Shown piece by piece: positions 18,322 through 37,076 of a DNA stretch of 47,560 nt. The stretch is taken from positions 1-47,560 of the forward strand of contig JASGVX010000056.1 of assembly GCA_030054735.1 (NCBI GenBank), read 5' to 3'. How positions within the stretch are numbered: position 1 is the first letter of the stretch; the number at the start of each line of letters is the position of its first letter. A program made the translations under genes and the position numbers. The DNA comes from Methanobacteriota archaeon (GTDB lineage Archaea > Halobacteriota > Methanosarcinia > Methanosarcinales > Methanosarcinaceae). A model generated the notes under the pieces. The model worked only from the letters and a program-made list of their open reading frames with translations, made no database searches and was not told the origin of the DNA.

Positions 18322-18663
18322 TTATTTTCTTTTGAGTCCTGCCTTCTTGCTATTTTTCTTTAACCTGCTGGGTTTAATATAATCAGTTTTTCCCAGGAAA
18401 CGGTCAACTGTTCCTGCAGTTGTGAACACAGTTTCTCTTTCCTCTTTGCGGTTGACAGTAAGCCCTAATAAAACCATGAGCAGACCTATTTCCGGCTTTA
18501 TTTCAATGCTAATCGCCCCTATGAGGACCAGAGAAGAAGCTGCAAGCCCTTTGAGTGCACCTTTCCTGTAAGAAATATAGCCTGTCCTTTTAAAAATTCG
18601 GATATCTCGAACTGTCAGGAAGAGGACTACAAAATAGGCAAGCATTGCGATTTTCAGATACAT
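18322..18663 (-). CDS. Hypothetical small membrane protein
   Basis: I do not recognise this family. The protein has a first membrane helix (YLKIAMLAYFVVLFLTV), a basic loop (RIFKRTGYISYRKGALKG), and two more hydrophobic segments (LAASSLVLIGAISIEI and IGLLMVLLGLTV). A very basic C-terminal tail ends in KKAGLKRK and should lie in the cytoplasm. The ATG at 18675 lacks a Shine-Dalgarno motif, whereas the in-frame ATG at 18663 has GGAG 7 bases upstream, so I chose the latter (113 residues). The nearest neighbours are not close enough for an operon. A function cannot be proposed. Confidence 0.65.
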   Translation of the reverse strand: MYLKIAMLAYFVVLFLTVRDIRIFKRTGYISYRKGALKGLAASSLVLIGAISIEIKPEIGLLMVLLGLTVNRKEERETVFTTAGTVDRFLGKTDYIKPSRLKKNSKKAGLKRK

Positions 18664-18994
18664 TCTTTTCTCCATTTTTTGCTTTTACACATCCTGCTCC
18701 TTTAAAGCTTACTCCTTTAAGCTTATTTTCAGGAGCAGGTGTGAGATCGGTGTCATAATGTGGTTTCTCAGTATTGCGATACAGATACTAATATCACATA
18801 TGGATTAAATTATAAGTGATCAGGGTTATGGATTACAGTATTATAACCGGGTAATATATACAAAGTCAGGTACTCTAAATAGTATATAAAACTAGCTGGT
18901 TTGGTTTTTTTCAGAATTCTCTTTTAGCCAAAAAAGCCGAATAAACTGTAGTTTCCTTTGAAGCTTGATAAACACGCTTCGAAGACAGTTAATT
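18664..18994. other. Gap without a recognised gene
   Basis: About 330 bp. A TATA-like TTTATATACTATT on the minus strand at about 18875-18887 could serve the hypothetical membrane protein gene, though the leader would be long. Nothing else was seen. Confidence 0.35.
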
Positions 18995-19789
18995 TTATTC
19001 TATATAAATTGAGAGCATCCCAGGGTCAAGGAGCCCGCTCAGGAGCAAAAGCCCGAGGAAAAGGGGCTGGTGGATAAAATATATAGAGAGTGAATGTTTT
19101 CCGATACCAGAAAAAAGTTTTTGAAACAGGAATTTGTCGGTTTCAGGGATTTTAAACTGCCTGTTACCATCTTTATAAAGAGAGTTTCCAAGGAAAATCC
19201 CTGTAAGAAGTACTCCAAACCAGGGAAACAGAGGGAAATAATCAAGGGTTACAAAGCCTTCAGGTGTTAAACCCAGCCAGAGAAGAGAATAAAAGCCAAA
19301 AGTCCTGTTTTTGAGGTAGAATCCTATAACCCCAAAAAAGATACCTAGTAGCAGGTTTTCTTTTCCGTATTTCAGGAAAGGATAGGCAAGTAGCGATGAT
19401 ACTCCAAAAAAATGCAGGATACCAAAAAGGATATACTGCCCGGGAAAGAAAATCCTGCTTATTCCTGTGATTATAAGACCCATTGAAAAAAGCCTCAACC
19501 CTCTTCTAAGATATTTGGGGAAATTCCCAATCGGCTTTCCTGATATTCTGCTGCCAGAGTCTCTTAAACGGCTGTCTCTTGAACGGCTTATGGAAAGAGC
19601 GGTGCCTGATATCAGGATGAAAAGAAAAGCTGCACCTCTGCCCATACAGAAAAAAATGCCGGACTTTAACTCGATATCAGCAAGCCCGAAAAAATCGAGG
19701 TCATAGAGAAAGTGATATGCAAGCATTAAAATTACGGCTAAACCCCGCAGGCAATCAATTTCCCAGAAGCGGCTTGAGCGCCTTTCCAT
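18995..19789 (-). CDS. DUF1624 (HGSNAT-like) multi-pass membrane protein
   Basis: The 264-residue protein begins with FWEIDCLRGLAVILMLAYHF, the hallmark of the DUF1624/heparan-alpha-glucosaminide acetyltransferase-like membrane acyltransferase group, and has about seven membrane helices. The conserved Asp, Arg-Gly and His near the N terminus are present. LFILISGTALSISRSR and the late motif SIYFIHQPLF also fit membrane acyltransferases. Transfer of an acyl group to an envelope glycan is plausible but unproven. GGAG stands 8 bases before the ATG. It is downstream of the CPBP protease gene on the same strand, separated by repeat copy E. Confidence 0.8.
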   Translation of the reverse strand: MERRSSRFWEIDCLRGLAVILMLAYHFLYDLDFFGLADIELKSGIFFCMGRGAAFLFILISGTALSISRSRDSRLRDSGSRISGKPIGNFPKYLRRGLRLFSMGLIITGISRIFFPGQYILFGILHFFGVSSLLAYPFLKYGKENLLLGIFFGVIGFYLKNRTFGFYSLLWLGLTPEGFVTLDYFPLFPWFGVLLTGIFLGNSLYKDGNRQFKIPETDKFLFQKLFSGIGKHSLSIYFIHQPLFLGLLLLSGLLDPGMLSIYIE

Positions 19790-20102: not shown

Positions 20103-20909
20103 TCATATCAGGCCCAGCCCCGGCCCCAGGTGCGGAATTAGTCCGAATAAAAATATATTTGTGAAACCGTGAACCATTATTACGAGAGAAAGGCTTTTTG
20201 TTCTGTAAAAGAAATGCCCCAGTATTCCTCCTGCAAGAAAAGTATATGCTATCTCATAAAGAGTGCCATAACTTGAATGCATTAATCCAAAAAGGAGGCT
20301 TGCAAGCAGAACCCCTCCTGCAGGCCCCAGGAACTCTTCCAACCTTGCCTGGATAATTCCTCTAAAGATAAGTTCTTCTATCAGGCTAACTACAAAAATC
20401 ATTATAATTATAAGTTCCAGCAGGTAAACAGGTGAAAGGTTAGGAATAAGCGGCTTGGGCTGGATAATTAAATACTCTGATTCTGCGAAGAGCAGGCCTG
20501 CAAGTACGGAGAAGGGCAGATAGATTTTCATTTTCTTGAGAAAGCCCCTCGTTTTCTCTCTTGGGACTTCATGATGAACTGCTATGATGGTTATTGGAAT
20601 TGTCATAGGCATGTACATGAATATGAAAGAGTACAGATTGGTTTCAAAGAAGATGGGCATTGAAAGATTTACCAAGCGAAGAATTGGAAGGAGTAAAAAT
20701 GCCTGGTAAACCTTGCGTATATCCAGTTTTTTTGAGATTATTATCGAAAATGAAAGGATGATAAGAAGCAGCGTATAGACTGTTGCGGCTTCTTTTATTC
20801 TTCCGCTAAATATTAACAACTCGGCAAAAGCAATAGCAATAACAGGAGCTCCTGCAGAGAATATCTTATGTAAAAAATTGGTTTTTTCATTAGTCTGCGT
20901 TTTGAACAT
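20103..20909 (-). CDS. CPBP-family intramembrane metalloprotease (copy a)
   Basis: CPBP (Abi/CAAX-type) proteases are multi-pass glutamate proteases or metalloproteases of the membrane. The protein has about eight helices and all three family motifs: EELIFRG, then FGLMHSSYGT, then VHGFTNIFLFG. Counted from the upstream TTG, these place Glu184/Glu185, Arg189, His217, His253 and Asn257. The frame opens at that TTG (20927), but AGGAG lies 9 bases before the ATG at 20909, which I prefer (268 residues). It follows the DUF1616 gene by a short gap and is probably co-transcribed with it. A paralogous pair lies at 28.9-31.6 kb. The substrate is unknown. Confidence 0.88.
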   Translation of the reverse strand: MFKTQTNEKTNFLHKIFSAGAPVIAIAFAELLIFSGRIKEAATVYTLLLIILSFSIIISKKLDIRKVYQAFLLLPILRLVNLSMPIFFETNLYSFIFMYMPMTIPITIIAVHHEVPREKTRGFLKKMKIYLPFSVLAGLLFAESEYLIIQPKPLIPNLSPVYLLELIIIMIFVVSLIEELIFRGIIQARLEEFLGPAGGVLLASLLFGLMHSSYGTLYEIAYTFLAGGILGHFFYRTKSLSLVIMVHGFTNIFLFGLIPHLGPGLGLI

Positions 20910-20981
20910 TTTTCCAAACTCCTGCAAAGAGACTTTTCCTGCTTTAAGATACAGAAGATGTATAGTCTGGAGACGCCATCT

Positions 20982-21869
20982 TCAGGTCTCCTTTGTGACG
21001 TTTATCCAGAGGTGCGTGTTCCTGTAGGGTACACTTTTTTCAGTTTCATTAAAAAGCAGAAACTCCAGTTTCATGTTCTTTCCCTCAACTGATGGAGTAA
21101 AAGTTACTGGCTCTTCCCATCTTTCCTTATGGTCAAGGCTAATGTATTTCTGATCTTCCGGAAGAGGCAGGGAGTGGTTTTCAAGCCTGATTTCCATTGT
21201 ATAATCCATAGTTCTATACTCATGGTTCGTAATCCCTACAATGACTGTCCCGCTCTTCCCTGGTGCTAATTCTGTGGGATAGTTTTCAGCCACTTTATCG
21301 GGCCCCAGGATGTAATATTCGGTGAATGACTCTCCTTCTTTGGGATTTCCTATGACATATGCAAGGCTGCCAATAGAAGCCAGTATGGAAATTGTCAGCA
21401 ACAATGCAAAGGCTTTGCTGCCTTTAGGGCCAGTTTCCTCAAGAAGCTCTGTTTTCGAAGTGGAGACAAATGATTTGATTGTGACATTAAAAGCTTCAGT
21501 TTCAGGCAACTGAAGTCTTCTAAAAAATCCCACCATACAGATGAGAAGTGTAAAAGCCGAAAGACCTGCGAGTACAGGAACTTCCCTGATCCCCCAGGAA
21601 GTATAGTTCATTCCAAGCCCCATGAGAGGGGATATTGCAATACTTAATCCAAAGGAGAGCATGGCTCTTTCAATTCCGTCCAGATCTTTTTTTGCAGGAA
21701 GAAGAGCTGCTGTCAGAGCATATCCTGGCAGGAATAGGACCAGAAGAAGTCCAAGGACTGTACGCAGAAAGCTCCCGCTGAGTACGGGCACAAGTACGAA
21801 AATATCAGTAAGGATCACAAGACCGGCTACGATCAGCAGGTCTAGAGGAAGGTGTCTCTTTCCAGCCAT
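20982..21869 (-). CDS. DUF1616 membrane protein (copy a)
   Basis: The protein has four membrane helices in its first 120 residues (including LGLLLVLFLPGYALTAALLP, typical of DUF1616), and a fifth near residues 150-175. A C-terminal extracytoplasmic beta domain of about 120 residues follows (YYILGPDKVAENYPTELAPG, GITNHEYRTMDYTMEI, and a final WINVT). DUF1616 proteins occur in archaeal envelopes, and their function is not established. The frame opens at a GTG at 21878, but alignment with the paralogue at 30691-31578 favours the ATG at 21869 (295 residues). It lies directly upstream of the CPBP protease gene, and this pairing is repeated in copy b. Confidence 0.82.
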   Translation of the reverse strand: MAGKRHLPLDLLIVAGLVILTDIFVLVPVLSGSFLRTVLGLLLVLFLPGYALTAALLPAKKDLDGIERAMLSFGLSIAISPLMGLGMNYTSWGIREVPVLAGLSAFTLLICMVGFFRRLQLPETEAFNVTIKSFVSTSKTELLEETGPKGSKAFALLLTISILASIGSLAYVIGNPKEGESFTEYYILGPDKVAENYPTELAPGKSGTVIVGITNHEYRTMDYTMEIRLENHSLPLPEDQKYISLDHKERWEEPVTFTPSVEGKNMKLEFLLFNETEKSVPYRNTHLWINVTKET

Positions 21870-22487
21870 TTTTATCACTTCTGAAATATTTAGTATACTT
21901 TCCTTCTACAATTTATACTTTTGTGAGCTTTCTGCCAATCCTCTCTAATTCCCTCTCTAATTTCATCTTTTTATATTTATTCATACACATATATTCCATT
22001 TTTTATTATCTTTTCTGCATTTTTTCAATGTACTTACAGTAATTCGTATTCAGATATTACTGCTGCAGAAGAATTGAGAATTAAAAAAGGAAATTTAAAG
22101 AGGTGTTTAACTGTGTTAAAGAAGTATTTTAACTGTTCACATTAATTATTTTACATAGTGAATTCTTATTAAAACGCTAAATAAGCTGCTACTTTGAAAC
22201 TGGTGTTTTGAGAACTTATTAAGTCCCTGAGTTCCATCGAGCTATGTGGAAAAACCCTGCAACAAACTTATATGGAAATCATCTTCTGTTTCATTTTAGA
22301 AACCTGAATCCCAATCTTTTTAATTCTCCTGTAACCCATAAGGTTTCTTCCTATGAAAAATTTTCCCTTCTGAGAAAGCTTCCTTCTGATTTTAATCAAT
22401 TTTTCTATTTCTATTAAATATTTTTAGTTAAGAAATTTCAGGCTTGCATAGAAAATTTTATTTTGTACTTCCCCCTTTTCTCGAAGC
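21870..22487. other. Divergent AT-rich gap
   Basis: About 620 bp between the divergent DUF1616 and epimerase genes. There are no repeats of the families seen elsewhere and no gene. An AATTTTATTTT stretch about 30 bases before the epimerase ATG may be its TATA box, with a leaderless start, because no Shine-Dalgarno motif is present. Confidence 0.4.
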
Positions 22488-23384
22488 ATGAAAGTGCTGA
22501 TTACAGGAGGAGCAGGTTTCATAGGCTCCCATATTGCTGAGTATTTTGCAGAATCAGGGCATAGTGTAAGGATTCTTGACAATCTCACTACCGGTTTTTC
22601 CAGAAATATCCCTCAGTACAGAAATATTGAATTCATTCAGGGGGATATCTGTGATCCCTCTTTGCTCGAAAAGGCGATCTCAGGCGTGGATTGCGTTTTC
22701 AATGAAGCTGCCCTCGTATCAGTGCCGCTTAGCTGTGAAAAGCCAGTCGAGGCTTTCCGGATAAACACTCTCGGAACACTTAATGTATTGCAGGCCTGTG
22801 TCAGGGAAGGAGTAGAAAAGTTTGTAACAGCGTCCTCGGCTGCAGTTTACGGAAACAATCCCGTACTTCCTAAAAGCGAGGGGATGTATCCTGAGCCTGC
22901 TTCGCCTTATGCGATCTCCAAACTTGACGGAGAGTACCTGTCTAGAATGTTTTACGAAGAACATGGACTTCGGACTACCTGTCTGCGTTACTTTAATGTC
23001 TATGGGCCGCGGCAGGACCCAAAGTCTCCATATGCAGCTGTGATCCCTATTTTCCTGGAAAGAGCAAAGGCAGGAAAAGATCTTATAATTTATGGCGACG
23101 GTCTTCAGAGCAGAGACTTTGTGCAAGTCAAAGATGTTGTCAGGGCAAATGTGGCAGCCCTTGAACACGGAGATGGTCAGGTATTCAATGTGGCTATGGG
23201 TAAAAGTGTAACAGTTCTGGAGCTTGCAGAGAACATTATTGAACTGACCGGGTCTTCAAGCAAAATTGTACATGCCGGGTCAAGGGCAGGAGATGTCCGT
23301 GACTCGAGGGCAGATGTTTCAAAAATTTCCGGCTGGTGGAAAGGCGAAATCGAACTGGAAGAAGGACTAATGAGCCTTATTTAA
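22488..23384 (+). CDS. NAD-dependent sugar epimerase/dehydratase (UDP-glucose 4-epimerase-like)
   Basis: This 298-residue extended SDR enzyme has the NAD-binding loop TGGAGFIGS, the ASSAAVYG strand with its catalytic Ser/Thr site, and the YAISK motif with catalytic Tyr and Lys. A substrate-binding region (RYFNVYGPRQDP) and a DFVQVKDVV segment follow. It resembles UDP-glucose/UDP-GlcNAc 4-epimerases and likely supplies an activated sugar for cell-surface glycans. It stands alone, about 10 kb before the main glycan locus, and runs opposite to its envelope-gene neighbours. It is slightly short for the family (usually 305-330). The exact substrate cannot be read from the sequence. Confidence 0.88.
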   Translation: MKVLITGGAGFIGSHIAEYFAESGHSVRILDNLTTGFSRNIPQYRNIEFIQGDICDPSLLEKAISGVDCVFNEAALVSVPLSCEKPVEAFRINTLGTLNVLQACVREGVEKFVTASSAAVYGNNPVLPKSEGMYPEPASPYAISKLDGEYLSRMFYEEHGLRTTCLRYFNVYGPRQDPKSPYAAVIPIFLERAKAGKDLIIYGDGLQSRDFVQVKDVVRANVAALEHGDGQVFNVAMGKSVTVLELAENIIELTGSSSKIVHAGSRAGDVRDSRADVSKISGWWKGEIELEEGLMSLI

Positions 23385-23453
23385 GTATAAAAGAGTTGAT
23401 TTTTAAAACAGAGCACGTTATTAATCATCAGAGTATCTAAAAAATAAAAATTT

Positions 23454-23480
23454 AAACAGGAGAGATTATTCCTCCTGTTT
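23454..23480. terminator. Bidirectional terminator-like hairpin
   Basis: AAACAGGAG (23454-23462) and CTCCTGTTT (23472-23480) form a perfect 9-bp stem with a 9-nt loop. Both sides are A/T-rich, and it lies in the convergent gap between the epimerase and the 950-residue surface-protein gene. Confidence 0.65.
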
Positions 23481-23535
23481 GTGTTTACTTTTTAAAATTC
23501 GCTTCCTCACCTGTTTGTATCCTCATTGTTCTCGT

Positions 23536-26388
23536 TTACTTTTTTCTTTTATACGACCCTATCAGGACGATTACAAGGAAACCTATAAAGAAGCTTGCAG
23601 CTTTTGCCCATGGGCTTCCGTTTTCCTTAGAAGGCACATCAAATCCCACAACTGACCTGTCCTTCTGCTCTGATTCTGGAGAGGACTGGACCTCATTTCC
23701 TGTTTTTCCTTCAATTCCAATTACATTCTTGCTGGCTGTAATTGCAAATGGTGAAAAGCCCGGAGTTTCAGCTTTGAAATTGACGTACTCATCATCTTCG
23801 TCTACTTTTTCAGTTTTAAGAGTAATCCACCGGTCTTCGGTGTAGTGCTGGAGGACTATGGTATCCACATTAATGTGGTTTTCATTTATCCATTCTTTGC
23901 TTACTCTGAAGCCCACTATAGCACTTTTTATATTTTCCGAACTCGAAAACTCCTCGTCTCCGACCTGTATATCGAGATATTTATAAACTACCCCTTCAGG
24001 TTCACCAGTAAGATCTGAGGATATTCCTTCCAATTCCTCAGCAATAGCCGTTATTCGACCTACCTGGGAGTTAAACTCAATATAAGTTACAGGACTGGCT
24101 GCATTTTTGAAATAAAACGTTGCCACTTTGCTATTTGATGCAACGGAGGGATCTTTCTCTGTTCCCCCAGTGCTCCTTGAGCTCATTTTTGCTTCGATCT
24201 TTACAGTTTTCTGAGAAAGCCCCACAAGGCCCTTTTCTGGGATATGTGCACCCACGAGTAGATAATAGCAGCCTGCAGGCAGATCAAATGCAGTAAGAGA
24301 CAGGGTATTCTGGCCAGCTTCTCCTACCGCTATTGTCCCCTTTCCATCTAAAAAGGTCTGGTTATTGTCTAATACATCACTAATGTCCATTCCATTCACT
24401 ATAACGGAAGTTCCGGCTCCAGTACCATCAGAGTTGATTTCTATGTCTGCTTTGTATGCCTCGTCTTTTATAAGTACAGCTCCGTAGGTGTAATCGTCGG
24501 CTGTAGCTCCTTTCAGTGACATGCTTATGTCCAGGTCATTTCCTTTTATTATACACGATGGGGCTGAAATGCACAGTTCGTATTCCGCAACCAAAAAGGC
24601 TGTTGCAGAAAGGACTGTCATACTTTTATCTTTATTCTGACGGACCATAACGACACAGTACGGGCCTGCACCAAGCTCTCCAAGGTTATAGTCTACTATA
24701 TCTCCGCATTCATCAAGTTTAACAGTGTGTTTTTCGTATTCTTCGCCCACGCTGTCCTTAAAGAGAGTATTTATGCTCCCAATATCTCCTGCATCGAAGG
24801 CATCTAAAAGCCCGTATGCACAGTCAGAAGTCAACTTGATCCGGTAGATCTCTACTATTTCGTTTTTAAGCCCCGGCTCTCCGTAGAAAGACATCTTCAC
24901 TTTTTCAGTCGGAAGAAATACGGGATGAGTGGTATAGGACTTAGTTGAAGGGTATGTTATGGTATAAGGGTATGTTGTGGTAGAACTTTCTTCTTCACAT
25001 TTATACAGAGTCCCTGATACTCCACCATACAGAGTCCCTGATACTCCACCATATTCCATGTGTTCAGGTCCATTATATGTGAGTTTTATTGGCTTTGGAA
25101 GTTGAATCCTTGTGCCTTCGTTCAAACATCCCATCACGATCCAGTTCCCGTCTGTCGGGCTGCTGGTGTGATCCAGGAAATAGACCACTTTATCAGTAAA
25201 GTTTAAATTAGCAATTTTCTTTTCGATATTTTTCTCAGGCTTGGTACAGTCTCCTTTATCTTTCTTATCATCAATTTTTGAGCTCTTTTCTTCGATCTTT
25301 ACAGTTTTCTGAGAAAGCCCTACAAGGCCCTTTTCTGGGTTATATGCACCCACAAGGAGGTAATAGCAACCAGCAGGAAGATCAAATGCACTAAGAGACA
25401 GAGTATTCTGGCCAGCTTCTCCTATCGCTATTGCCACCTTTCCATCTAAAAAGGTCTGGTTATTGTCTAATACATCTATAATGTCCATTCCATTCACTAT
25501 AACGGAAGTTCCAGCTTCAGTACCATCAGAGTTGATTTCTATGTCTGCTTTGTATGCCTCATCTTTTATGAGTACAGCTCCGTAGGTGTAATCGTCGGCT
25601 GTAGCTCCTTTCAGTGACGTGCTTATGTCCAGGTCATTTCCTTTTGTTATACACGATGGTGCTGAAATGCACAGTTCATGTTCCACAACCATAAAGGCTG
25701 TTGCAGAAAGGACTGTAATACTATTATCTTCATTCTGAGAGACCATTACGATACAGTACTGGCCTGCATCAAGCGGTCCAAGGTTATAGTTTGATATATC
25801 TCCGCATTCATCAAGTTTAACAATGTGTTTTTTGGATTCTACGCCCACGTTGCCCTTAAAGGCATTTATGCTCCCAATATCTTCTCCCTCGGAGGCACCA
25901 AAAAGCCCGTAAGAGCTTGGAAGCCCGTAAGAGTCAGAAAACAAGTTGATCAGGTAGATCTCGACTTCTTCGTTTTTAAGCCCTGGCTCTCCGTAGAAAG
26001 ACATCTTCACATCTTCATTCGGAAGAAATACCGGATGAGTGGTATAGGACTTGGTTGAAGGGTAGGTTATGGTATAACTTTCTTCTTCACATTTATACAG
26101 AGTCCCTGATACTCCATCGTATTCTATGTGTTTAGGTCCATTATATGTGAGTTTTATTGGCTTTGGAAGTTGAATCCTTGTGCCTTCTTTCGGGTTTCCC
26201 ATCACGATCCAGTTCCCGTCTGTCGGGCTACTGGTGTGATCCAGAAAATAGACTACTTCATCAGTAAAGTTTAAACAAGCTATTGGCTTAGCTATTGGCT
26301 TTGCATCTGTTTTTTCGCAACACGCCATTGCTGGTGCAGAGGTTAATATAAACACTGCTAATATTAGTATCAATAAACTTTTTCTCAA
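23536..26388 (-). CDS. Large secreted surface protein with duplicated module and PGF-pre-PGF domain
   Basis: The 950-residue exported protein has a signal peptide (residues 1-23). Two tandem modules of about 340 residues follow, each starting LNFTD-VVYFLDHTSSPTDG and ending LPAGCYYLLVGA...LSQKTVKIE (about 38-375 and 392-738). Next is a PGF-pre-PGF domain (about 745-900, with a typical GFSPFAI end), then one membrane helix and a KRKK tail. The modules resemble methanogen extracellular TIGR04279-type proteins. The start is TTG at 26388, supported by GGAGGT 6 bases upstream. Module 2 carries extra small in-frame duplications (25003-25050). It probably sits on the cell surface; its partner is unknown. 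The 375-residue surface protein gene is just upstream on the same strand. Confidence 0.85.
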   Translation of the reverse strand: MRKSLLILILAVFILTSAPAMACCEKTDAKPIAKPIACLNFTDEVVYFLDHTSSPTDGNWIVMGNPKEGTRIQLPKPIKLTYNGPKHIEYDGVSGTLYKCEEESYTITYPSTKSYTTHPVFLPNEDVKMSFYGEPGLKNEEVEIYLINLFSDSYGLPSSYGLFGASEGEDIGSINAFKGNVGVESKKHIVKLDECGDISNYNLGPLDAGQYCIVMVSQNEDNSITVLSATAFMVVEHELCISAPSCITKGNDLDISTSLKGATADDYTYGAVLIKDEAYKADIEINSDGTEAGTSVIVNGMDIIDVLDNNQTFLDGKVAIAIGEAGQNTLSLSAFDLPAGCYYLLVGAYNPEKGLVGLSQKTVKIEEKSSKIDDKKDKGDCTKPEKNIEKKIANLNFTDKVVYFLDHTSSPTDGNWIVMGCLNEGTRIQLPKPIKLTYNGPEHMEYGGVSGTLYGGVSGTLYKCEEESSTTTYPYTITYPSTKSYTTHPVFLPTEKVKMSFYGEPGLKNEIVEIYRIKLTSDCAYGLLDAFDAGDIGSINTLFKDSVGEEYEKHTVKLDECGDIVDYNLGELGAGPYCVVMVRQNKDKSMTVLSATAFLVAEYELCISAPSCIIKGNDLDISMSLKGATADDYTYGAVLIKDEAYKADIEINSDGTGAGTSVIVNGMDISDVLDNNQTFLDGKGTIAVGEAGQNTLSLTAFDLPAGCYYLLVGAHIPEKGLVGLSQKTVKIEAKMSSRSTGGTEKDPSVASNSKVATFYFKNAASPVTYIEFNSQVGRITAIAEELEGISSDLTGEPEGVVYKYLDIQVGDEEFSSSENIKSAIVGFRVSKEWINENHINVDTIVLQHYTEDRWITLKTEKVDEDDEYVNFKAETPGFSPFAITASKNVIGIEGKTGNEVQSSPESEQKDRSVVGFDVPSKENGSPWAKAASFFIGFLVIVLIGSYKRKK

Positions 26389-26471
26389 TTACATACCTCC
26401 CCATTGATTTTTTTGAATAAGCCGCTGGATAGAATTATTTTCTCCCCCCCGGCTAAATTATTATTTTTATT

Positions 26472-27581
26472 TCATTTTCTTTTTGAATACAGAATAAGGA
26501 TTAGAACTGCTGCTACCATTCCCCCCAGCATGTAAACCAGATCCACGGGTAACCCTGCTTTTTTAAAAGGTAGGAGTGCCTGAACTTCTTTGTTTTCTCC
26601 CCGTTTGTTTTCTCCCTGTTTATTGCTTTGATCTGGATTCAAGATTGCTTCTGCATTTTTTACAGCTTCTGCTTTTTTCTCAGCTTCTGCTTTTTTCTCA
26701 GCTTCTTCTTTTTTCTCAGCTTCTGCTTTTTTCTCAGCTTCTGCTTTTTTTACAGCTTCTGCATTTTTTACGGCTTCTTCTTTTTTCTCAGCTTCTTCTT
26801 TTTTTACAGCTTCTGCATTTTTTATAGCTTCTTCTTTTTTCTCAGCTTCTGCATTTTTTATAGCTTCTTCTTTTTTCTCAGCTTCTTTCTGTGATTCTGA
26901 GATATCCTGTTCCTTTGGGGTTTCTTTTTCCTGTGGCGAATAACCTGGGGTCGTAGCTGAAGTTTCTCCTTGCTGAAGGGCTATATTTTTCGTAATGCCT
27001 CCAACACTTACTTCAAAGTCTCCAGGGGGAACAGCTTTTGTATTATAAGAGTAACTGAAGTTACCGTTTGAATCTGCTTTCACCTGTTGAACAGCTGTTA
27101 TTTTCAGGTCCACAGTTGAAGATCCCCCAGCATCTCCATCCATCTTTATCTGGTAGGTCCCAGGAGGGACACCCGATTGCGTTACAGTTGCCGTGTTTCC
27201 GGAAGCTTCTGAACTCTTAGTCAACCAGATTAGCATTCTTACCCTGACATTGAGGTTTCTGACGTCATTTGCCCGGACCGTAAAGCGGTTATTGACCCCT
27301 TCAGGGATTTTCACGTCATCGAGTATGTACTCGTACTTTCCTCCTGATGCCTGAACTACTTTTTCAAAAGTTACCTCTATTGGAACCTCCTCCTCCGGAG
27401 ATGCGCTTCCTTTAATTTGAAGGGTGTCTCCATGGGCGAGGTTTTCAGGAGATAATTCCCAGCTACTAACTGCTGCAGCTGCAGGTGAAATTGTTAGTAG
27501 AGCCAGAATCAGAACCGAAAGAGAAGTAATTATAAGGGCATGTTCTTTTCGCCTTTTATGTAGATGAGTGGATTTTATCAA
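26472..27581 (-). CDS. Membrane-anchored surface protein with Lys/Glu/Ala repeat stalk
   Basis: This exported protein has a signal peptide (basic start, then LSVLILALLTISPAAAA) and two beta-rich regions (WELSPENLAHGDTLQIKG onward). A stalk of about 90 residues consists of imperfect KKEEA/KKAEA/KNAEA units (about residues 235-325), followed by one membrane helix and a KRK end. The stalk should form a long charged coiled coil or helix. The frame opens at a TTG at 27599, but that TTG overlaps an AAAGGAG motif. The next in-frame TTG (27581) is 8 bases after that motif and aligns with the GTG start of the paralogous leader at 30170, so I chose it (369 residues). It is upstream of the 950-residue surface protein gene. 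No enzyme motif was seen. Confidence 0.8.
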   Translation of the reverse strand: MIKSTHLHKRRKEHALIITSLSVLILALLTISPAAAAVSSWELSPENLAHGDTLQIKGSASPEEEVPIEVTFEKVVQASGGKYEYILDDVKIPEGVNNRFTVRANDVRNLNVRVRMLIWLTKSSEASGNTATVTQSGVPPGTYQIKMDGDAGGSSTVDLKITAVQQVKADSNGNFSYSYNTKAVPPGDFEVSVGGITKNIALQQGETSATTPGYSPQEKETPKEQDISESQKEAEKKEEAIKNAEAEKKEEAIKNAEAVKKEEAEKKEEAVKNAEAVKKAEAEKKAEAEKKEEAEKKAEAEKKAEAVKNAEAILNPDQSNKQGENKRGENKEVQALLPFKKAGLPVDLVYMLGGMVAAVLILILYSKRK

Positions 27582-27599
27582 GGGAACTGCTCCTTTCAA

Positions 27600-28243
27600 C
27601 TAGGATATGCTTATTATTTTTATCATGTATCTATTTAAATTTTTTTGAAGAAATTGGCAAAATATAAATTTAATGGTAATGCCAATAATTTGCATTTTCA
27701 TGAATTTATCTCATGCAAATTACATAAATTTTTATTAACAGTATGTTTAGTTATGCAGATATTAATTATAAATTTTTTGTTTTTTGTTTTGTTATTATGA
27801 CATACCCTGAATTCTACTGACTTTTCTATTTTTTTATTTGAGTGAATTGCCATTTTTCTGCTTTAACTTCCTATTATTTTTTAGTAAATGTATTAGTAAT
27901 GTAATTTGATGTTTATAATCTTTTCTCGATTTTTTTCTACAGATATTTATTATTTTTTGACTAATATATCGTTATTTAATTCTATAACTCATTGTACTCA
28001 TGTTGTTTCTTTTTCATCCCTCTTTTATTTTCATTAAATTTATTTAATCTTTTTATTGTTAGTAATAACTATATATCTTATTCTATCTGTTTAATGTCTG
28101 TGGAAACTTTTTTATAGTATCCGGTCTTTTATACGAATAATTTCACAAAAAATTGTGTGAAACTAAATAATTATTTATGGGAGGTATGAACCACGTTATT
28201 AAGCATAATTTCATCAAGTGCAATTTCCGCAAGTGCAATTTCT
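27600..28243. other. AT-rich divergent gap
   Basis: About 640 bp of very AT-rich sequence with long T runs and no credible gene. The right end (28177-28243) contains GGAGGT and an in-frame extension that may belong to the small membrane protein that follows. Confidence 0.4.
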
Positions 28244-28441
28244 ATGGTTACAAGTCCTGGGCTTCCACCACTCGGAGTTGCGGTAGTTATTGGGCTGATA
28301 GCTCTCCTTTGTTTAAAGGAGATTCTTTCAGCATCCGAACACTGGAACAAATCCCTGGAAAGTACCTTTAATGTGACAATTCTGCCTTTACTCTTCAGTT
28401 TTGCTGCAATTGTCGCTTTTAAGGTTGTAGAGGTCATTTAA
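28244..28441 (+). CDS. Small hydrophobic membrane protein, start uncertain
   Basis: The 65 residues from the ATG at 28244 hold two membrane helices (LGVAVVIGLIALLCLKEIL and ILPLLFSFAAIVAFKVVEV) separated by a short polar loop. The same frame is open upstream to a stop at 28187 and reads a Ser/Ile/Ala-rich stretch that looks coding but has no ATG, GTG or TTG. GGAGGT at 28179-28184 serves a different frame. Either the protein starts at 28244 without a Shine-Dalgarno motif, or a frameshift has separated it from its original start. A perfect hairpin follows the stop. I know no function. It sits between the surface-protein genes and the second CPBP gene. Confidence 0.6.
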   Translation: MVTSPGLPPLGVAVVIGLIALLCLKEILSASEHWNKSLESTFNVTILPLLFSFAAIVAFKVVEVI

Positions 28442-28477
28442 ATTCCGGTTTTTCCGGAATAATTCCTCCTTTTTTTG
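28442..28477 (+). terminator. Terminator-like hairpin after the small membrane protein
   Basis: ATTCCGG (28442-28448) and CCGGAAT (28454-28460) form a 7-bp stem with a T5 loop. A T7 run begins at about 28471. Confidence 0.65.
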
Positions 28478-28952
28478 CACCAATAGAAAAAGTTTAATGC
28501 ATTTGCATTATTATTTTTTTAAATGATTTTTATTTTTTTAGCCTTAATTTCATGTTTCTTAAATTGCCCTGGCTCTCTGCGGATATTTGTTCTGGTTCTT
28601 CTCAGAATTTTCAAGAATTCCAGGACTATATGCAGTTGGGGAGTAAAATCAGGAATAGTATAGACTCGTCAACATCAGTCTAATTTATACAGTTAAGTCT
28701 TTTCCGCTTATGGTTTTAGTTCAACTGCGTAAGTCCTAAATTCTTCAAGCATTCTCAAAAAGCACACATGAACTCTTCGAACAAAGATACAAAAAATGAA
28801 AGTGCTTTTCAAATCACGCATTCATCCAAGGAATAAAAAGAAAAAAAGTTTGGAAAAAGAAATCAGACTTTAAAAAATGAAAAAATTTCGGAATCTGAAA
28901 CTGCAGGAAAGTTTTCTTGAAAGAAAATTTCACGATTTCTTTTAATGTAGTT
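28478..28952. other. Gap with a decayed repeat copy
   Basis: About 475 bp without a gene. Copy F of the interspersed hairpin repeat, strongly diverged, lies at about 28761-28825 on the minus strand. Confidence 0.45.
28761..28825 (-). repeat. Interspersed hairpin repeat, copy F (decayed)
   Basis: Read on the minus strand, ATGAATGCG...GAAAAGCACTTTCAT replaces the intact hairpin, and TTTTTTGTATCTTTGTTCGA and GTTCATGTGTGC follow. The order of blocks is that of copies A-E, but the left arm is lost. Confidence 0.5.
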
Positions 28953-30170
28953 TCAGAAACCAGGCCACATATTTAGCTGGTGAGGCAGGATTCCGAAAAG
29001 GAAAACGTTGACAAAACCGTGAAGGACAGCAACAAATGGCAGACTCCTTGTTTTGTAGAAAGCAAGGCCCATAATAAGTCCTACAAAGCCCGTATAGAGA
29101 ATTTCCTGTAAAGTGCCGTACCCCGAGTGCATAAACCCGAACATAAGACTTGTGATTAACAGGGCTTCCCACACACTGAGGGCTTTCTCAAGCCTGGTCT
29201 GCAGGATTGTCCTGAAGATCAGTTCTTCTACAAGCCCTACAAAAAAGACCATTACAATGGTAAGCTTGAGCAGATTTACAAAAGTCAGGTCAGGGATCAG
29301 GTAGCCTGCCTGGATGGTAAGGTATTCCCCTAGTCCCAGTAGAAAGCCAAGAGGCACAGAAATAATCATATACGGTACGATATTTTCCATGGTTATTCCT
29401 ATCTCTTCAAGAGAATCCCGCTGGTGAAATATGATGACTGCAACAGGGATTGCAAGGGGGCCGTAGACAAAGATGAAGGTATAAAGGGTAGTATCAAAAA
29501 AGATAGGCATTGAAAGATTTATCAGCCTGAGCACAGGTAGTAGCATAAAGGCCTGGTAAATTCTATGTATCTCCGGATCTTTTAAGAATATATCTGAAAG
29601 AGAGAGGGCAATGATAACTCCTATATGTATCCAGACAGCTGTCCCCATCCTGCCTGAAAAGATAAGAAGTTCTGCAGCAGTTATGCTCAGGATAGGGATT
29701 GCGGTAAGGAGCCTTATCCTTCTGGCTTCAAATTTTTCCAGATCAACTTCTTCAGGCCCTGGTGGCTCCCATACTTTGAGCCAGCGGAGGTCTTTTACAG
29801 ACTTTTTTGCAAACGCCAGGTCTCCAGAAGTTATGTGCGAATATCCGAAAAAAATCAAAATTCCTGCAACCATTCCTAATAATACACTATATATGATAAC
29901 CACATATCGCTCGGTTTTTTGGGGTGAATCTGGTTCTTTATATGGGACTGGTGCAGCTCCGGAAGCTTCTTCTCCCGATACTTCTTCTCCCGATACTTCC
30001 ACATGTGTCCATTCCAAAAGATGTCCATCCTCTCTAGAAGAAGATAACTCCAGGTTGCTAGTTGACACGGCTTCTGAAGTGATTGCCATTAAGGCCAGAA
30101 TCAGGACTGAAACAATAATCCGAAAATTCAGTCCTTTTTGCCTTTTATGATAATTGACTGTTTTTTTCAC
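28953..30170 (-). CDS. CPBP-family intramembrane metalloprotease with secreted-type N-terminal leader (copy b)
   Basis: Residues about 155-405 are paralogous to the CPBP protein at 20103-20909. They carry the complete motifs EELIFRT (Glu315/Glu316, Arg320), FGFMHSGYGT (His348) and LHGFVNVFLFG (His384, Asn388). Unlike copy a, there is a roughly 150-residue N-terminal extension: a signal-peptide-like leader (RIIVSVLILALMAI), a short acidic stalk with a repeated VSGEE unit, and a membrane helix (about 88-110). The GTG start at 30170 has GGAG about 9 bases upstream. The leader and its 5' flank resemble those of the surface protein gene at 26472-27581, suggesting gene fusion. The DUF1616 gene (copy b) lies upstream, but a 520-bp gap separates them. 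Confidence 0.87.
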   Translation of the reverse strand: MKKTVNYHKRQKGLNFRIIVSVLILALMAITSEAVSTSNLELSSSREDGHLLEWTHVEVSGEEVSGEEASGAAPVPYKEPDSPQKTERYVVIIYSVLLGMVAGILIFFGYSHITSGDLAFAKKSVKDLRWLKVWEPPGPEEVDLEKFEARRIRLLTAIPILSITAAELLIFSGRMGTAVWIHIGVIIALSLSDIFLKDPEIHRIYQAFMLLPVLRLINLSMPIFFDTTLYTFIFVYGPLAIPVAVIIFHQRDSLEEIGITMENIVPYMIISVPLGFLLGLGEYLTIQAGYLIPDLTFVNLLKLTIVMVFFVGLVEELIFRTILQTRLEKALSVWEALLITSLMFGFMHSGYGTLQEILYTGFVGLIMGLAFYKTRSLPFVAVLHGFVNVFLFGILPHQLNMWPGF

Positions 30171-30690
30171 GAAAATTGCTCCTCTTTCTAACAGGACATG
30201 TCCAGGTTTATTTCGTAGTCATCTCATTAAATGTTTTTCATTTGTTTTCTATAATTAAATCCTGTGGATGACATGCAACTGTTCTATTACACAAGCTTTT
30301 ATTGTAATTAGTGTATAAAGTTTTATCGATAGTTAAGTACTTTCAATGATTAACTTCAACTTATGTAAAACTTAAAAAGGATTTATAGGCAAACTTTCAA
30401 TCGTACTCACTGGCACCTGTTTTGAGTCAAAATTTTAATTCAAAAGCAAAAAAGCTGGCAAATTTATAGATACATGACAAACACATTTCCTATAAGGGTC
30501 ATGAAGGAATGATTAGCTTTCTTTAATGTAGGGGTAATTATCTTTCTTAATAAATAACTCCGGCAAGCGGCAACTTAAGCTTAAATCAGCAGCTTAAGCT
30601 TTAATCTGACATTCTAATTTTAAGGGGAAGCCTGTGGATAAAGTCCCGGCTTCAAGGTTCATTTTTTGAAGTGTCGGGATTTTTGCAGCC
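30171..30690. other. Gap between the DUF1616 and CPBP genes, copy b
   Basis: About 520 bp without a gene. Near the DUF1616 stop, TCCCG-CTTCAA (30644-30655) and TTGAAG-CGGGA (30666-30679) can pair as an imperfect hairpin. In copy a the corresponding gap is only about 70 bp. Confidence 0.45.
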
Positions 30691-31578
30691 TCAACTCTCT
30701 GTTGAGTTTACATTAATCCATAGGTGAAGGTCTCTGTAGGGGGTGTTTTTATCAGTTTCGTTGAAGAGCAGGAACTCAAGTTTCATATTCCTTCCCTCAT
30801 CCGGAGGGGTGAGTGTCAGGGGCTTTTCCCAGGTCTCGTTGTGGGCAAGTGACACATACCGAATATTTTCAGGTAGAGGAAGGGGTTTATTTTCAAGCTT
30901 CACTTCCATTGTGTAGTTTACAGTCCTGTATTCATGGTTTACTACCCCAACAATTACTTCCCTGCTTTCTCCAAGTGTGTAGTTTGTCGGGTAATTGTCA
31001 GCCATTCCTTCAGGCCCGAGAATATAAAACTCTGTGAAGTGCTCCCCTTCTTTAGGGGTAATTATCACATAGACAAGGGTTGCAACAGAAAGGAGAATGG
31101 AAATAACAAGAATGACTGTGAGAGCCCTGTCGAGCCCAGGCTCAGGTTTTTCCAGAATTTCTGCTTTAAGTTCGAGCGCTGTTTTCGTAAAGGAAATCCC
31201 AAAGGCGTCGTCTTCGGGAAGTTTTGCCCGCCTCAGGTATGCAATCCCGCACATTACAAGTGTTAACACTGATAGGCTTATCAGGATTGGCAGAAGCCTT
31301 ATCCCCCAGGGGGTATAGTTAAGCCCAAGCCCGATAAGAGGCACTACTGCAATACTCAGCCCAAAGGAAAGTGCTGTCCTTTCAATGCCGTCAAGGTCTG
31401 ATTTTGCGGGAAAGAGCGCAGCAATCAGGGCATAACCTGGCAGGAAAAGTACAAGGGGCAGGCCGAGGATATTGCGGAACACAGTTTCACTTAATCCGGG
31501 CGTGAGTGCAAAGATATCGGCAAGGAGCACAAACCCTGTAACAGTCAACAGGTCTGAAGGAACTTTTTTTCCGGTCAT
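30691..31578 (-). CDS. DUF1616 membrane protein (copy b)
   Basis: This 295-residue paralogue of the protein at 20982-21869 has the same layout. Four N-terminal helices with LGLPLVLFLPGYALIAALFP come first, then a fifth helix at about 150-170, and an extracytoplasmic beta domain starting FYILGPEGMADNYPTNYTLG and ending LWINV. The two copies align over the whole length without large gaps. It is intact, with the ATG at 31578. The next gene on the strand is the second CPBP protease, so the DUF1616-CPBP order is conserved between copies. That supports a functional link, though the activity of DUF1616 is unknown. Confidence 0.82.
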   Translation of the reverse strand: MTGKKVPSDLLTVTGFVLLADIFALTPGLSETVFRNILGLPLVLFLPGYALIAALFPAKSDLDGIERTALSFGLSIAVVPLIGLGLNYTPWGIRLLPILISLSVLTLVMCGIAYLRRAKLPEDDAFGISFTKTALELKAEILEKPEPGLDRALTVILVISILLSVATLVYVIITPKEGEHFTEFYILGPEGMADNYPTNYTLGESREVIVGVVNHEYRTVNYTMEVKLENKPLPLPENIRYVSLAHNETWEKPLTLTPPDEGRNMKLEFLLFNETDKNTPYRDLHLWINVNSTES

Positions 31579-32628
31579 TCAGGTCATCCGGTGTAAAATT
31601 TTAAAAAAATTATTATATTTTTTCAGTATTTTTCAGGAAAGTAACTATTTTTCCTCATACATTTTATTCTTTCGCTCTTTTTCATATTGTAGAGTAATTT
31701 AAATATAACTCTTAGTTTTTAGTTTGAGGACCAATCTATAAATCCCATTTCCTCCAACAAGCATTCCTAATGTCTCGTCAGCGTTAATATGCCGTATTTA
31801 ATCAATTAGAACGATTCAAAATCGTATTGTCCTTGATGACTGACACGACACCAGTAACAAAATCCCTTGATATATTCTTGAACCGTCCCTATATTAATCA
31901 GTGATTTTTTCCGTTTTATCTTTATTTTCACAGTATTATTTCTTCTATTATGTCGTCTATTATTTCTTTGATTATTTTTTATTCCAGTCAGGAAGTTTAT
32001 TATTTTCTTTCTATGTATATTTTTTGATTCAAGTCATTTAATTTTTAATTTGTTTTTTAATACGCTCTTATTCTACAGGGCCTGGAAAACACCCTTCACT
32101 TATTTTCCTTAATTTTTACTGTTTAAATTTTCTCTTACTCAGTAAATGCGGTAAGTGGCAAGTATTGTTTATTTAAGCTCTAATCTTTTAAATCCCTGGA
32201 ACAGTTATTGAGAATGCTTGAGGAGCTGTGCCGTATGAGTGCAAAAGTTTAAAGTTCTCACGATGTTATTTTTTCAAAATCGGTTTTTTACTTTTAATTA
32301 TTCATTTTTTAAACCACCTTGTTTTTTTCCTATTGTTTGTAGGGTTGAATCTCAATCGTATAACATTATATTTCTGAAACCAACTGTTCGCCCGCATATA
32401 TTATTACTTATTAATTATTATATCATTGTGAATATGTCAATAAATTTATATAGTCGTGCCTCTGATTACTCTCTAAAAAATTAAAATATATCTTGGACTC
32501 AGACAGTCTTTAAATCAACCCAAATAAGCTTGATGCAATATGTATTTAATGACGTTTGAGCTTCTTTTATTACCTTTACTGTGCAATATAAATTACAAAG
32601 GGGTCATACAATTAAAGGGGTTATACAA
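31579..32628. other. Long AT-rich gap before the glycan locus
   Basis: About 1050 bp. It holds the second 88-bp MITE-like element (31767-31854). The rest is T-rich with no credible gene; a short frame at 32239-32484 has no ribosome-binding site and no family resemblance. The promoter for the GT2 genes must be near its right end. Confidence 0.45.
31767..31854. repeat. 88-bp MITE-like element, copy 2
   Basis: Same length and same interior landmarks as 7444-7531, with AAAATCGTAT, TCCTTGATGACTGACACGAC and similar ends. The left arm has diverged (CTAATGTCTCGTCAGC). It marks a second insertion of the same family. Confidence 0.7.
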
Positions 32629-33600
32629 ATGAGCAATGAGCTTCTTATGTGCAACAGTACTCAGTACCCGGCTCATAAAGAACACAAGCGTTTCAGGGGG
32701 TCTCTTTCTCAAAATATAATTGTAGTCATTTCAGCCTATAATGAAGAAGTTTCAATCGGAAGCATAGTCATTCTCACCAAAGCATATGCCGACAACGTAA
32801 TTGTTGTCGATGACGGAAGCACTGACCGCACAGCTGAAGTTGCCAGGAAAGCAGGAGCCAGGGTTATTCTCCAGGAAAGCAGCAAAGGAAAAGCTGAATC
32901 CCTCAAAACCGGATTTATGGCCGCAAACGATCTGGGTGCAGATATTATAGTAACCATGTACCCGGACGGCCAGCACAACCCTGCCGATATCCCAAAGCTC
33001 GTTGCACCCATAATCAAAGGCGAAGCTGAAATGGTAAATGGCAGCCGCTATCTTAGTCATCCAGGCAAAAACGCACCTGTTTACCGCCTCATCGTCCAGA
33101 CTATCCAGAACACAACTGCAAAAATGAACTTTAACCTAAAAATAACTGATGTTCAGAGCGGTTTCCGTGCATATGCAGCCTCTACAAAGAATATTTTCCG
33201 TTTCAGCGGCAAAAAAGCAGCTATAGAAAATGAAATGCTTGCCGAAGCAGACAGATCAGGTATCCGTATTACAGAAGTCGAGATCGAGGGATATAATAAC
33301 CCTGGAACTTCTATCAGAAACCCGGCAAAGTACATCCTTGGAGTCCTTAAAACCGTGGCCGCAGGTATAGAGGCAAACGAGCCTCTGTACTTCTACTCCG
33401 TTCCAGGCTTTGCCCTTGCAACCTGCGGGTTCTACATGGGTTTCAAATTAATGGAAGCTTTCTTCCTCGGCAGTACAAGCCTCAACTTCGGGCCTACTTT
33501 CTTGATGGTCTTCCTTGCAATTACAGGTGCATACATGACACTCAGGGGGATAATCGAGCACTCAATGGCAGGAGCGGCCAAGAAGACCGAGTCGGCTTGA
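32629..33600 (+). CDS. GT2 membrane glycosyltransferase with altered DxD motif
   Basis: This 323-residue protein has an N-terminal GT-A domain (NIIVVISAYNEE, VVDDGSTDRTAE) and two C-terminal membrane helices, as in dolichyl-phosphate sugar transferases. The metal-binding segment reads MYPDGQHNPADIP. The expected first Asp of DxD is Tyr111; the neighbouring paralogue has Asp there. The later RYDVDGS-like segment is also lost (EGYNNPGTS). Metal-dependent transfer is therefore doubtful, and it may be a degenerating or regulatory copy. The frame is open to a GTG at 32581, but the ATG at 32629 has GGGG 8-9 bases upstream and aligns with the paralogue's start. It heads the glycan locus. Confidence 0.85.
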   Translation: MSNELLMCNSTQYPAHKEHKRFRGSLSQNIIVVISAYNEEVSIGSIVILTKAYADNVIVVDDGSTDRTAEVARKAGARVILQESSKGKAESLKTGFMAANDLGADIIVTMYPDGQHNPADIPKLVAPIIKGEAEMVNGSRYLSHPGKNAPVYRLIVQTIQNTTAKMNFNLKITDVQSGFRAYAASTKNIFRFSGKKAAIENEMLAEADRSGIRITEVEIEGYNNPGTSIRNPAKYILGVLKTVAAGIEANEPLYFYSVPGFALATCGFYMGFKLMEAFFLGSTSLNFGPTFLMVFLAITGAYMTLRGIIEHSMAGAAKKTESA

Positions 33601-33836
33601 TCTTTGTTTATATTAATGGCAATTTAATTCAACAAAAAGTTAATCCAACTCACCCGCTTCAATGACAAAAAAACCAATAGCTATCCAGGCACAGAACCTC
33701 AAAACAAGCAGATTTTGTTTTTGGTTCCCCTGTTTCCTGAATAGTTATTCTTAATTTAAATATTTATTACTTAATCTATATTGTCAAACCTTAATGATCA
33801 TTGAATTTCTGGACCTATTACTCTGGAGTTAATCGG

Positions 33837-34805
33837 ATGAATAATGAATTGATGGTGGGAAATATCCAGCAAACAACAAAAAAAGAGGAAAATCCAGATC
33901 TAAGAGGAACATCCCCTCAAAATATAACCGTGGTCCTCCCTGCCTTTAATGAGGAAGTCTCAATAGGCAGCATGGTCTTCCTTACAAAGTCCTACTGCGA
34001 CAACGTAATCGTGGTCGACGACGGCAGCTCTGACCGCACAGAAGAAATCGCCAGAAATGCAGGAGCCCACGTAATCGTCCACGAGGTAAACAAAGGCAAA
34101 GGAGCGGCCCTCGAGACCGGCTTTACAGCCGCAGTCGGCATTGGTGCAGATATTATTGTCACAATGGACTCAGACGGCCAGCACAACCCGGCTGATATCC
34201 CCAGAATAGTAGCCCCAATCATCGACGGCACTGCCGAGATGGTAAACGGCAGCCGCTACCTGAGCCGTTCGGACAAGAATACCCCAGCCTACCGCCGAAT
34301 CGGCCAGAAAGTCCTGGATACTGCCACAAATATAAACTCCGGCCTGAAGGTCACAGATTCCCAGAGCGGCTTCCGCGCATTCGCGGCTTCAACAAAAAAC
34401 GTTTTCCGGTTCAACGCACAGGGCATGGCAATTGAAAGCGAAATGCTTGCCGATGCCGGCAGGTCAGGGCTGCGGATCAAGGAAGTTGAAATCGGTGTCA
34501 GGTACGATGTTGACGGCTCAACAATAAGCCCGATAAAACATGGTTTAGGCGTCCTTGTTATGGTTTTAAAGGATGCCGAATTTAACAGGCCTCTATATTA
34601 CTTCACAGTTCCTGGTTTTGCCCTCTGGTTAGTGGGGCTGTTTATGGGTTTAAACTTCTTGTATGGGTTTATGCTCGGCAAGGGTTTATACTTCGGGCCT
34701 ACGATGGTTATGATTCTGTTTATAATTATAGGGATATTTATGACATTGACAGGAATTTTGCTGCATTCGATAGCTGAGGTGGCAAGGAAAACAGAAACGG
34801 CTTGA
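33837..34805 (+). CDS. GT2 membrane glycosyltransferase (dolichyl-phosphate sugar transferase-like)
   Basis: This 322-residue paralogue of the preceding gene has intact catalytic features: NITVVLPAFNEE, VVDDGSSDRTEE, KGKGAALETGF, and the DxD motif in TMDSDGQHNP (Asp111, Asp113). GVRYDVDGST and two membrane helices at the C terminus follow. Such enzymes move a sugar from a nucleotide donor to a polyprenyl phosphate at the inner face of the membrane, feeding S-layer or polysaccharide glycosylation. The ATG at 33837 follows GGAG by 7 bases; an upstream in-frame TTG (33801) is unsupported. Tandem duplication with the gene at 32629 is evident. Confidence 0.88.
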   Translation: MNNELMVGNIQQTTKKEENPDLRGTSPQNITVVLPAFNEEVSIGSMVFLTKSYCDNVIVVDDGSSDRTEEIARNAGAHVIVHEVNKGKGAALETGFTAAVGIGADIIVTMDSDGQHNPADIPRIVAPIIDGTAEMVNGSRYLSRSDKNTPAYRRIGQKVLDTATNINSGLKVTDSQSGFRAFAASTKNVFRFNAQGMAIESEMLADAGRSGLRIKEVEIGVRYDVDGSTISPIKHGLGVLVMVLKDAEFNRPLYYFTVPGFALWLVGLFMGLNFLYGFMLGKGLYFGPTMVMILFIIIGIFMTLTGILLHSIAEVARKTETA

Positions 34806-35007
34806 GTTTATAGCTAAATTTTCAGGCAGCGGGCAAATTCAGGGCATTGTATGATTTTTATATGGTTTCCTGAAAGGGACTCTGTGCTTAATTAAGTCTT
34901 AAGGTACTTTTGATCCTGCTTGCTCACATAAATTATTGATTCATATTAATCAAGTCGTATTTGCAGTGTGAATAGTGAATATTTAGTAATATAATGGTGT
35001 AACAAAA

Positions 35008-36081: not shown

Positions 36082-36133
36082 TATAAGGATGTATGTAATA
36101 TACAAGTTACTTTTAATAATACGAGGATACAGC

Positions 36134-37075: not shown

Positions 37076-37076
37076 A

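Follow-up and report, generated by a model that had tools for sequence, protein, structure and literature searches.

The window analysed here is contig C56 (47,560 nucleotides) of a Methanosarcina genome that comprises 149 contigs and 2.88 Mb. It raises the question of what is served by a gene pair that it carries twice: a gene for a DUF1616 membrane protein followed by one for a CPBP/Rce1-like predicted intramembrane protease. A sequence-only reading of the window had described both pairs and proposed that they may form a membrane system that processes or anchors the exported proteins encoded nearby. Matches to PF07760 and PF02517 confirm the two minus-strand pairs, at 28953-31578 (copy A) and 20103-21878 (copy B), and resolve the minus-strand order as DUF1616 A (30691-31578; PF07760, E 2.3e-107), a 520-bp gap (30171-30690), CPBP A (28953-30170; PF02517, E 2.9e-19), a stalk protein, a large surface protein with TIGR04279 and PGF-pre-PGF regions, DUF1616 B (20982-21878; PF07760, E 1.1e-95) and CPBP B (20103-20927; PF02517, E 2.1e-19). 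Between the cassettes, the plus strand encodes a small protein with two transmembrane segments (two-TM protein) and a sugar epimerase; the PGF-pre-PGF, stalk and small membrane proteins had all been recognized in the sequence-only reading, which omitted the epimerase. We tentatively favour, with a confidence that stays somewhat below even, a reading in which the cassette is a CPBP-based maturation module for surface proteins, with DUF1616, the small two-TM companion and the stalk protein as its other parts, and is related to C-terminal sorting systems.

An operon-like gene pair of the Methanosarcinaceae

Searches of this genome's contigs, based on mechanical gene calls, returned four DUF1616 and five PF02517 loci, three of each being paired (two in the window and one on contig C144), while the two unpaired CPBPs belong to another subfamily (EE[FL]GWRGY). 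As the loci for comparison had partly been selected via DUF1616, we recounted the CPBP and small-protein linkage by genome-wide searches; counts are uncorrected for relatedness, and the lineage of many comparison genomes is given by family number only. Seven complete or near-complete Methanosarcina genomes contain 20 DUF1616 genes, 17 of which have a CPBP gene at a distance of at most 2.5 kb (0.16 expected at random), and together with the paired loci of the present genome this means that the cassette pairing is no chance event. Across named genomes of the family, including Methanosarcina, Methanolobus, Methanococcoides, Methanohalophilus and Methanomethylovorans, 60 of the 74 testable DUF1616 genes have a co-directional CPBP gene at most 3 kb downstream, and 48 abut or overlap it (gap of at most 4 bp). 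DUF1616 and CPBP form an operon in Methanosarcinaceae, by the measure of operon-like linkage.

At the level of the phylum, DUF1616 is found in 69 of 100 sampled genomes, and it is present in all 23 genomes that clearly encode this CPBP subfamily (E < 1e-25) as compared to 47 of 78 others (101 phylum genomes; Fisher p 7e-5, ignoring relatedness). The linkage itself extends less far: the expectation that DUF1616 and CPBP genes would mostly be found side by side in other genomes is borne out in Methanosarcinaceae and fails in most of the remaining phylum. Since DUF1616 genes outside the order mostly have no neighbouring CPBP, the pairing is lineage-limited. In other classes, DUF1616 is instead found near a gene set for a MoxR ATPase, DUF58 and DUF4350, in place of CPBP (L068, L070, L071, L074, L080, L082, L084, L087; locus labels are those of our analysis). 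In two relatives the cassette is in decay: a DUF1616 gene interrupted by several stops lies about 1 kb away from a CPBP gene that is still intact (G015:C1:2037468-2038122 and G021:C1:1674379-1675033).

Both window DUF1616 proteins are full-length PF07760 matches (320.8 and 359.2 bits, positions 1-307). A structural model of copy A (pLDDT 84) places membrane helices at residues 8-173 and a beta domain at 182-291, and in a fold search the C-terminal domain resembles the CARDB structure 3idu; the membrane part gave no match in that search, in which the C-terminal domain alone was informative. N-glycosylation has been reported for HVO_2173, a DUF1616 protein of Haloferax (PMC8241124), and comparison of the published data with our DUF1616 alignment shows that one of its glycopeptides, LVRGEPASLVLGVGNQE, falls in the homologous C-terminal domain, which is therefore extracellular. 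DUF1616 could thus act as the membrane partner of the CPBP, presenting client proteins via its extracellular CARDB-like domain.

A predicted glutamic protease, its small neighbour and the stalk protein

Both window CPBPs score well above the curated PF02517 cut-off (70 and 69.6 bits versus 22.4) and feature complete EExxxR, FxxxH and HxxxN motifs, which in copy B correspond to E184, E185, R189, F213, H217, H253 and N257. The Glu pair, Arg, Phe and Asn are conserved in every one of 82 cassette CPBPs, 69 of which retain the full motif set, so that by sequence the cassette CPBP is a predicted glutamic intramembrane protease; no solved homologue of DUF1616 or of this CPBP subfamily was found by sequence. 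In the reading we favour, the CPBP would be the endopeptidase that cuts an exported client at or within its membrane segment. The remaining 13 copies have lost one motif His (H217 in 6, H253 in 7) while keeping the fold-defining residues, as every copy does, and they include the third copy of this genome, in which Asn replaces the His (FGLMN). This pattern is what one would expect of a non-proteolytic scaffold, in which the CPBP fold helps to assemble or chaperone surface glycoproteins, the kind of role proposed for APH-1 and SpdC/LnsB, with DUF1616, the two-TM protein and the stalk protein as partners; precedents for non-catalytic CPBPs have been discussed (PMC7387801). Nevertheless, the complete glutamic-protease motif set in 69 of 82 proteins, both window copies included, the retention of the Glu pair and Arg in all 82, and the finding that sister CPBPs adjoin sorting proteases make a scaffold rather doubtful in our estimate.

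Tail-to-tail with CPBP A lies the plus-strand gene for the small two-TM protein (28193/28244-28441), the window member of a family that we define here by two TM segments, an invariant K-E ... P ... K-E pattern (alignment A7) and a gene adjoining a CPBP, all of which it displays; the protein has no Pfam or NCBIfam match above curated cut-off. In a genome-wide search of 40 relatives (hits of at least 48 bits), 54 of the 80 hits are no more than 2.5 kb away from a CPBP gene, 48 of these tail-to-tail, and in complete genomes the figure is 17 of 19, with 0.09 expected. Furthermore, the gene stays with CPBPs that are separated from DUF1616 (G002, G003, G014, G022, G013) as well as with exosortase-linked CPBPs. 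We propose that the two-TM protein could regularly accompany the protease as a small partner. As the most constant neighbour of the CPBP regardless of DUF1616, it could also be a substrate, in line with a regulated proteolysis or quality-control function in which the CPBP would degrade or shed membrane proteins, among them archaeosortase-orphaned anchors and perhaps the two-TM protein, with signalling or clean-up, not sorting, as the purpose; the adjacency of CPBPs to exosortases, where cut anchors would need clean-up, fits the same idea. The invariant charged residues and tail-to-tail placement, however, suggest a partner over a consumable substrate, and the cassette has no recurrent regulator gene, and we therefore regard such a function as very unlikely.

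The window copy of the small gene (start region 28178-28246) has an ACG at 28193, behind GGAGGT, where relatives have ATG, and the listed open reading frame begins at ATG 28244, with homology reaching back to 28193. Either translation begins at this non-standard codon, or the original start has been lost and ATG 28244 has taken over.

The stalk protein (26472-27599, minus strand) is composed of a signal peptide, a conserved all-beta domain (residues 42-213), a low-complexity EKKAEA stalk and a C-terminal TM segment followed by SKRK. The domain, of about 170 residues and modelled at a pLDDT of 90.5, gave only poor matches in a fold search of the PDB (best TM-score normalised by query of about 0.37). 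We define the stalk-domain family by the signal peptide, the roughly 170-residue all-beta domain and a C-terminal anchor, all present in the window protein, which is the single such gene in the genome (match to stalk-domain profile A3, E 1e-67). The domain recurs adjoining DUF1616, whether CPBP is present or absent, and weakly similar domains adjoin DUF1616 in other families. The repeats of the stalk region read EKKAEA/EKKEEA in the window (26570-26930) and NEDSSS at the same place in locus L108, so that stalk length and sequence vary freely.

A direct connection between stalk protein and CPBP is seen in copy A, whose CPBP has an additional N-terminus relative to copy B. Its first ~115 residues match the signal peptide of stalk proteins (score of 82 in the window, against at most 44 for controls, and up to 113 in relatives; at most 51 for control exported proteins overall), and its N-terminal TM segment matches the stalk-protein TM segment in most copies (a score of 49 for the window protein, against at most 34 for controls, and as much as 80 in relatives; controls at most 37 overall), whereas the beta domain has been lost. 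A stalk::CPBP fusion comprising signal peptide, stalk and TM segment (residues ~1-115) is thus common to the copy-A class. Such a joining gives the stalk protein the appearance of a subunit rather than of a substrate, and a permanent subunit is also what the scaffold explanation would call for; in the favoured reading the stalk protein would be either an extracellular subunit or a dedicated client of the protease.

The layout also invites a comparison with gamma-secretase, in which APH-1, of CPBP fold, is joined by the small PEN-2 and the single-pass nicastrin. The cassette likewise combines a CPBP-fold protein, a small two-TM protein and a single-pass protein with a large ectodomain; unlike gamma-secretase it has no presenilin, and the CPBP itself bears the protease motifs. 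The likeness is one of analogy, with no sequence relation claimed for the small and stalk proteins. By extension, the cassette might encode an archaeal intramembrane protease made up of several subunits, namely a CPBP core, a two-TM subunit, a client-gating single-pass glycoprotein (joined to the core in copy A) and, as the fourth and glycosylated one, DUF1616; this would provide an exosortase-free maturation route derived from exosortase accessory parts, an arrangement that we consider speculative and decidedly unlikely in this full form.

Exported neighbours and the relation to C-terminal sorting

Next to the stalk gene, the large surface protein (23536-26388, minus strand) contains two TIGR04279 regions (E 2.8e-177), a PGF-pre-PGF domain (TIGR04213, E 4.3e-46) and a C-terminal TM segment without a PGF motif. 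Proteins of the TIGR04279 family recur near the cassette, and near stalk genes even away from it (16 of 16 within 5 kb). One relative (G002, locus L237, 4605-14246) carries three stalk-domain and two TIGR04279 genes clustered far from any DUF1616-CPBP pair. A search for a shared new C-terminal sorting tag did not find one: stalk proteins in part of the genus end in a GLPVDxVYMLGGM-like sequence and TIGR04279 proteins in an SFFxGFLxV-like sequence, neither of which is universal. In the window, both proteins have a TM segment and a basic tail, lack PEP, PEF and PGF motifs, and contain no Cys in their last 40 residues.

Exported anchored proteins neighbour the cassette at 10 of 17 Methanosarcina loci and at 11 of 13 loci of other genera. 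Sugar genes (GT2, epimerase or GT4) show a different distribution, being present within 5 kb of 16 of the 17 Methanosarcina DUF1616 loci and of 2 of the 13 in other genera. The sugar-gene count for Methanosarcina, the glycan cluster that starts at 32581 in the window, and the usual identity of the gene divergent from DUF1616 in Methanosarcina as a GT2 or epimerase would fit a cassette that is part of the adjacent cluster for N-glycans or surface polysaccharide, with a role such as lipid-linked sugar handling and no protein cleavage involved. Comparison of the two sets of counts nonetheless speaks for a function in protein rather than glycan handling, as do the stalk fusion and the association with exosortases. 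With the sugar linkage largely confined to Methanosarcina, we set the glycan explanation aside as unlikely.

Several observations tie the cassette proteins to sorting enzymes. In a CPBP tree, the DUF1616-linked CPBPs group together as a clade with 70% bootstrap support, and their sister group, far from the other Methanosarcina CPBPs, consists of exosortase-linked CPBPs and some unlinked ones. The nearest CPBPs of other lineages adjoin an exosortase and an EpsI-like partner, often with a PEP-CTERM-like protein (L242, L245, L246, L247, L248, L249, L133, L118, L115), and at L242 a DUF1616 gene, a stalk-domain gene, a small two-TM gene, a CPBP and an exosortase are found together within about 8 kb. 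On contig C137, the gene for the fourth DUF1616 protein of this genome (803 aa) is flanked by one for archaeosortase C (TIGR03762, E 1e-129) and one for a PEF-CTERM protein, which matches TIGR03024 (G000:C137, locus L101: 6994-7842, 9469-11880 and 12450-12980), and a long DUF1616 gene lies near an archaeosortase in four other Methanosarcina (L129-L132).

The cassettes therefore share with the exosortase/archaeosortase systems (XrtA/PEP-CTERM, archaeosortase C/PEF-CTERM, archaeosortase A/PGF-CTERM) relatives of all four parts, as sister CPBPs and DUF1616-domain, stalk-domain and small two-TM genes adjoin those enzymes, and, further, a neighbourhood of exported proteins with a C-terminal TM segment. 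They differ in that their neighbours lack PEP, PEF and PGF motifs and that no cassette gene of the window matches an exosortase family, archaeosortases A and C being encoded elsewhere in the genome (contigs C91 and C137); moreover, exosortases and archaeosortases are cysteine enzymes, whereas the cassette candidate is of the glutamic CPBP type. EpsH-CAAX protease fusions described in the literature (PMC1569441) similarly tie a CPBP to exosortase function, with the difference that the cassette proteins are separate and that the fusion found here is stalk::CPBP. A CPBP that sorts surface proteins is also known, namely myxosortase (PMC11980579), whose representatives MrtX, MrtJ and MrtS cut MYXO-CTERM, JDVT-CTERM and Synerg-CTERM proteins. 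Common features are the CPBP fold with its EExxxR...FxxxH...HxxxN motifs, a weak overall similarity (20-42 bits) and a tight neighbourhood with exported C-terminal-TM proteins. However, the window CPBPs fall far below all NCBIfam cut-offs (41.7 of 130 bits for MrtS, 39.9 of 75 for MrtJ and 28.2 of 100 for Mrt_core), the putative cassette clients have no invariant Cys before the C-terminal TM segment, and the myxosortase systems as described in PMC11980579 have no DUF1616, small two-TM or stalk partner. Because the defining features of both kinds of system were tested for and are absent here, we class the cassette as neither a myxosortase nor an exosortase system.

From linkage, fusion, motif conservation, phylogeny and sorting-enzyme neighbourhood we infer a physical complex whose proteolytic activity, clients and partner roles would be those outlined above: a branch of the CPBP and DUF1616 parts that accompany exosortases and archaeosortases elsewhere, here working without an exosortase gene of its own. 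The earlier proposal that the pair processes or anchors nearby exported proteins is thereby strengthened in part, given the genuine linkage, exported anchored neighbours across genera and separate ties of both families to exosortases or archaeosortases. A number of findings weigh against it. Outside the order, most DUF1616 genes lack an adjoining CPBP, and in Methanothrix DUF1616 and the stalk domain occur together with CPBP absent, the stalk gene overlapping DUF1616 by 4 bp at locus L215. The stalk and TIGR04279 neighbours, when their C-termini are compared, have no common C-terminal signature or conserved cysteine; some stalk proteins lack a C-terminal TM segment altogether; and Methanohalophilus TIGR04279 orthologues carry ordinary PGF-CTERM signals. 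Genes for archaeosortase A occur in 39 of 40 relatives, this genome among them, which also rules out that the CPBP is its replacement. Finally, the fusion argues against the stalk protein as a released substrate, and the loss of a motif His in some cassette CPBPs is at odds with a protease in every copy.

A literature search, which missed most subscription papers, found no description of the cassette, no mention of TIGR04279 and a single paper that names DUF1616. The latter, widespread in archaea without a known role, gains a first testable one through its ties to a CPBP subfamily, an undescribed small membrane protein and exosortase loci. If correct, the proposed maturation module would add a protease-based route for surface proteins in genetically tractable methanogens and offer a hint as to how separable parts come together in membrane-protease complexes.

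Old paralogues and flanking genes

The two window cassettes are not identical units: their DUF1616 proteins share 58% identity, CPBP A has the additional N-terminal ~130 residues, and the gap from DUF1616 to CPBP is 520 bp in copy A (90-1134 bp across the copy-A class) and 54 bp in copy B. A tree of 82 paired DUF1616 proteins resolves copies A, B and C as three old paralogues inside a Methanosarcina clade with 100/100 support, each subsequently inherited across the genus. A recent cassette duplication is ruled out by this tree, which places the A/B/C split at the base of Methanosarcina, and the long retention of all three cassettes argues for distinct uses. Copy C, the third cassette, is the DUF1616-CPBP pair on contig C144 (G000:C144, locus L100: 9483-10379 and 10382-11224). 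C144 ends right after this cassette and contig C65 right after a small two-TM gene, and the two ends may belong together.

In relatives, CPBP copy B starts 2 bp past DUF1616; the window ATG at this site runs into a stop after 11 codons (20907-20980), and the gene now probably starts at ATG 20909, which is preceded by AGGAG. Divergent from copy B is the gene for the NAD-dependent sugar epimerase (22488-23384, plus strand; PF01370, E 1.7e-66), conserved at this site within the genus. Upstream of copy A, the glycan cluster (32581-45340, on the plus strand at its start) encodes two GT2 proteins, the first AglJ-like, a UDP-GlcNAc 2-epimerase, two NAD-dependent epimerase/dehydratases, several GT4 proteins and one Glyphos_transf-family protein. 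At 18322-19789, a gene for an HGSNAT-like acyltransferase (PF07786) and one for a 117-residue protein with three TM segments follow copy B and precede dapA, as they do in many Methanosarcina genomes. Methanosarcinales-type DUF1616 genes also occur on contigs of metagenome-assembled genomes labelled Bacteroidales (L191, L192), most likely through binning contamination.

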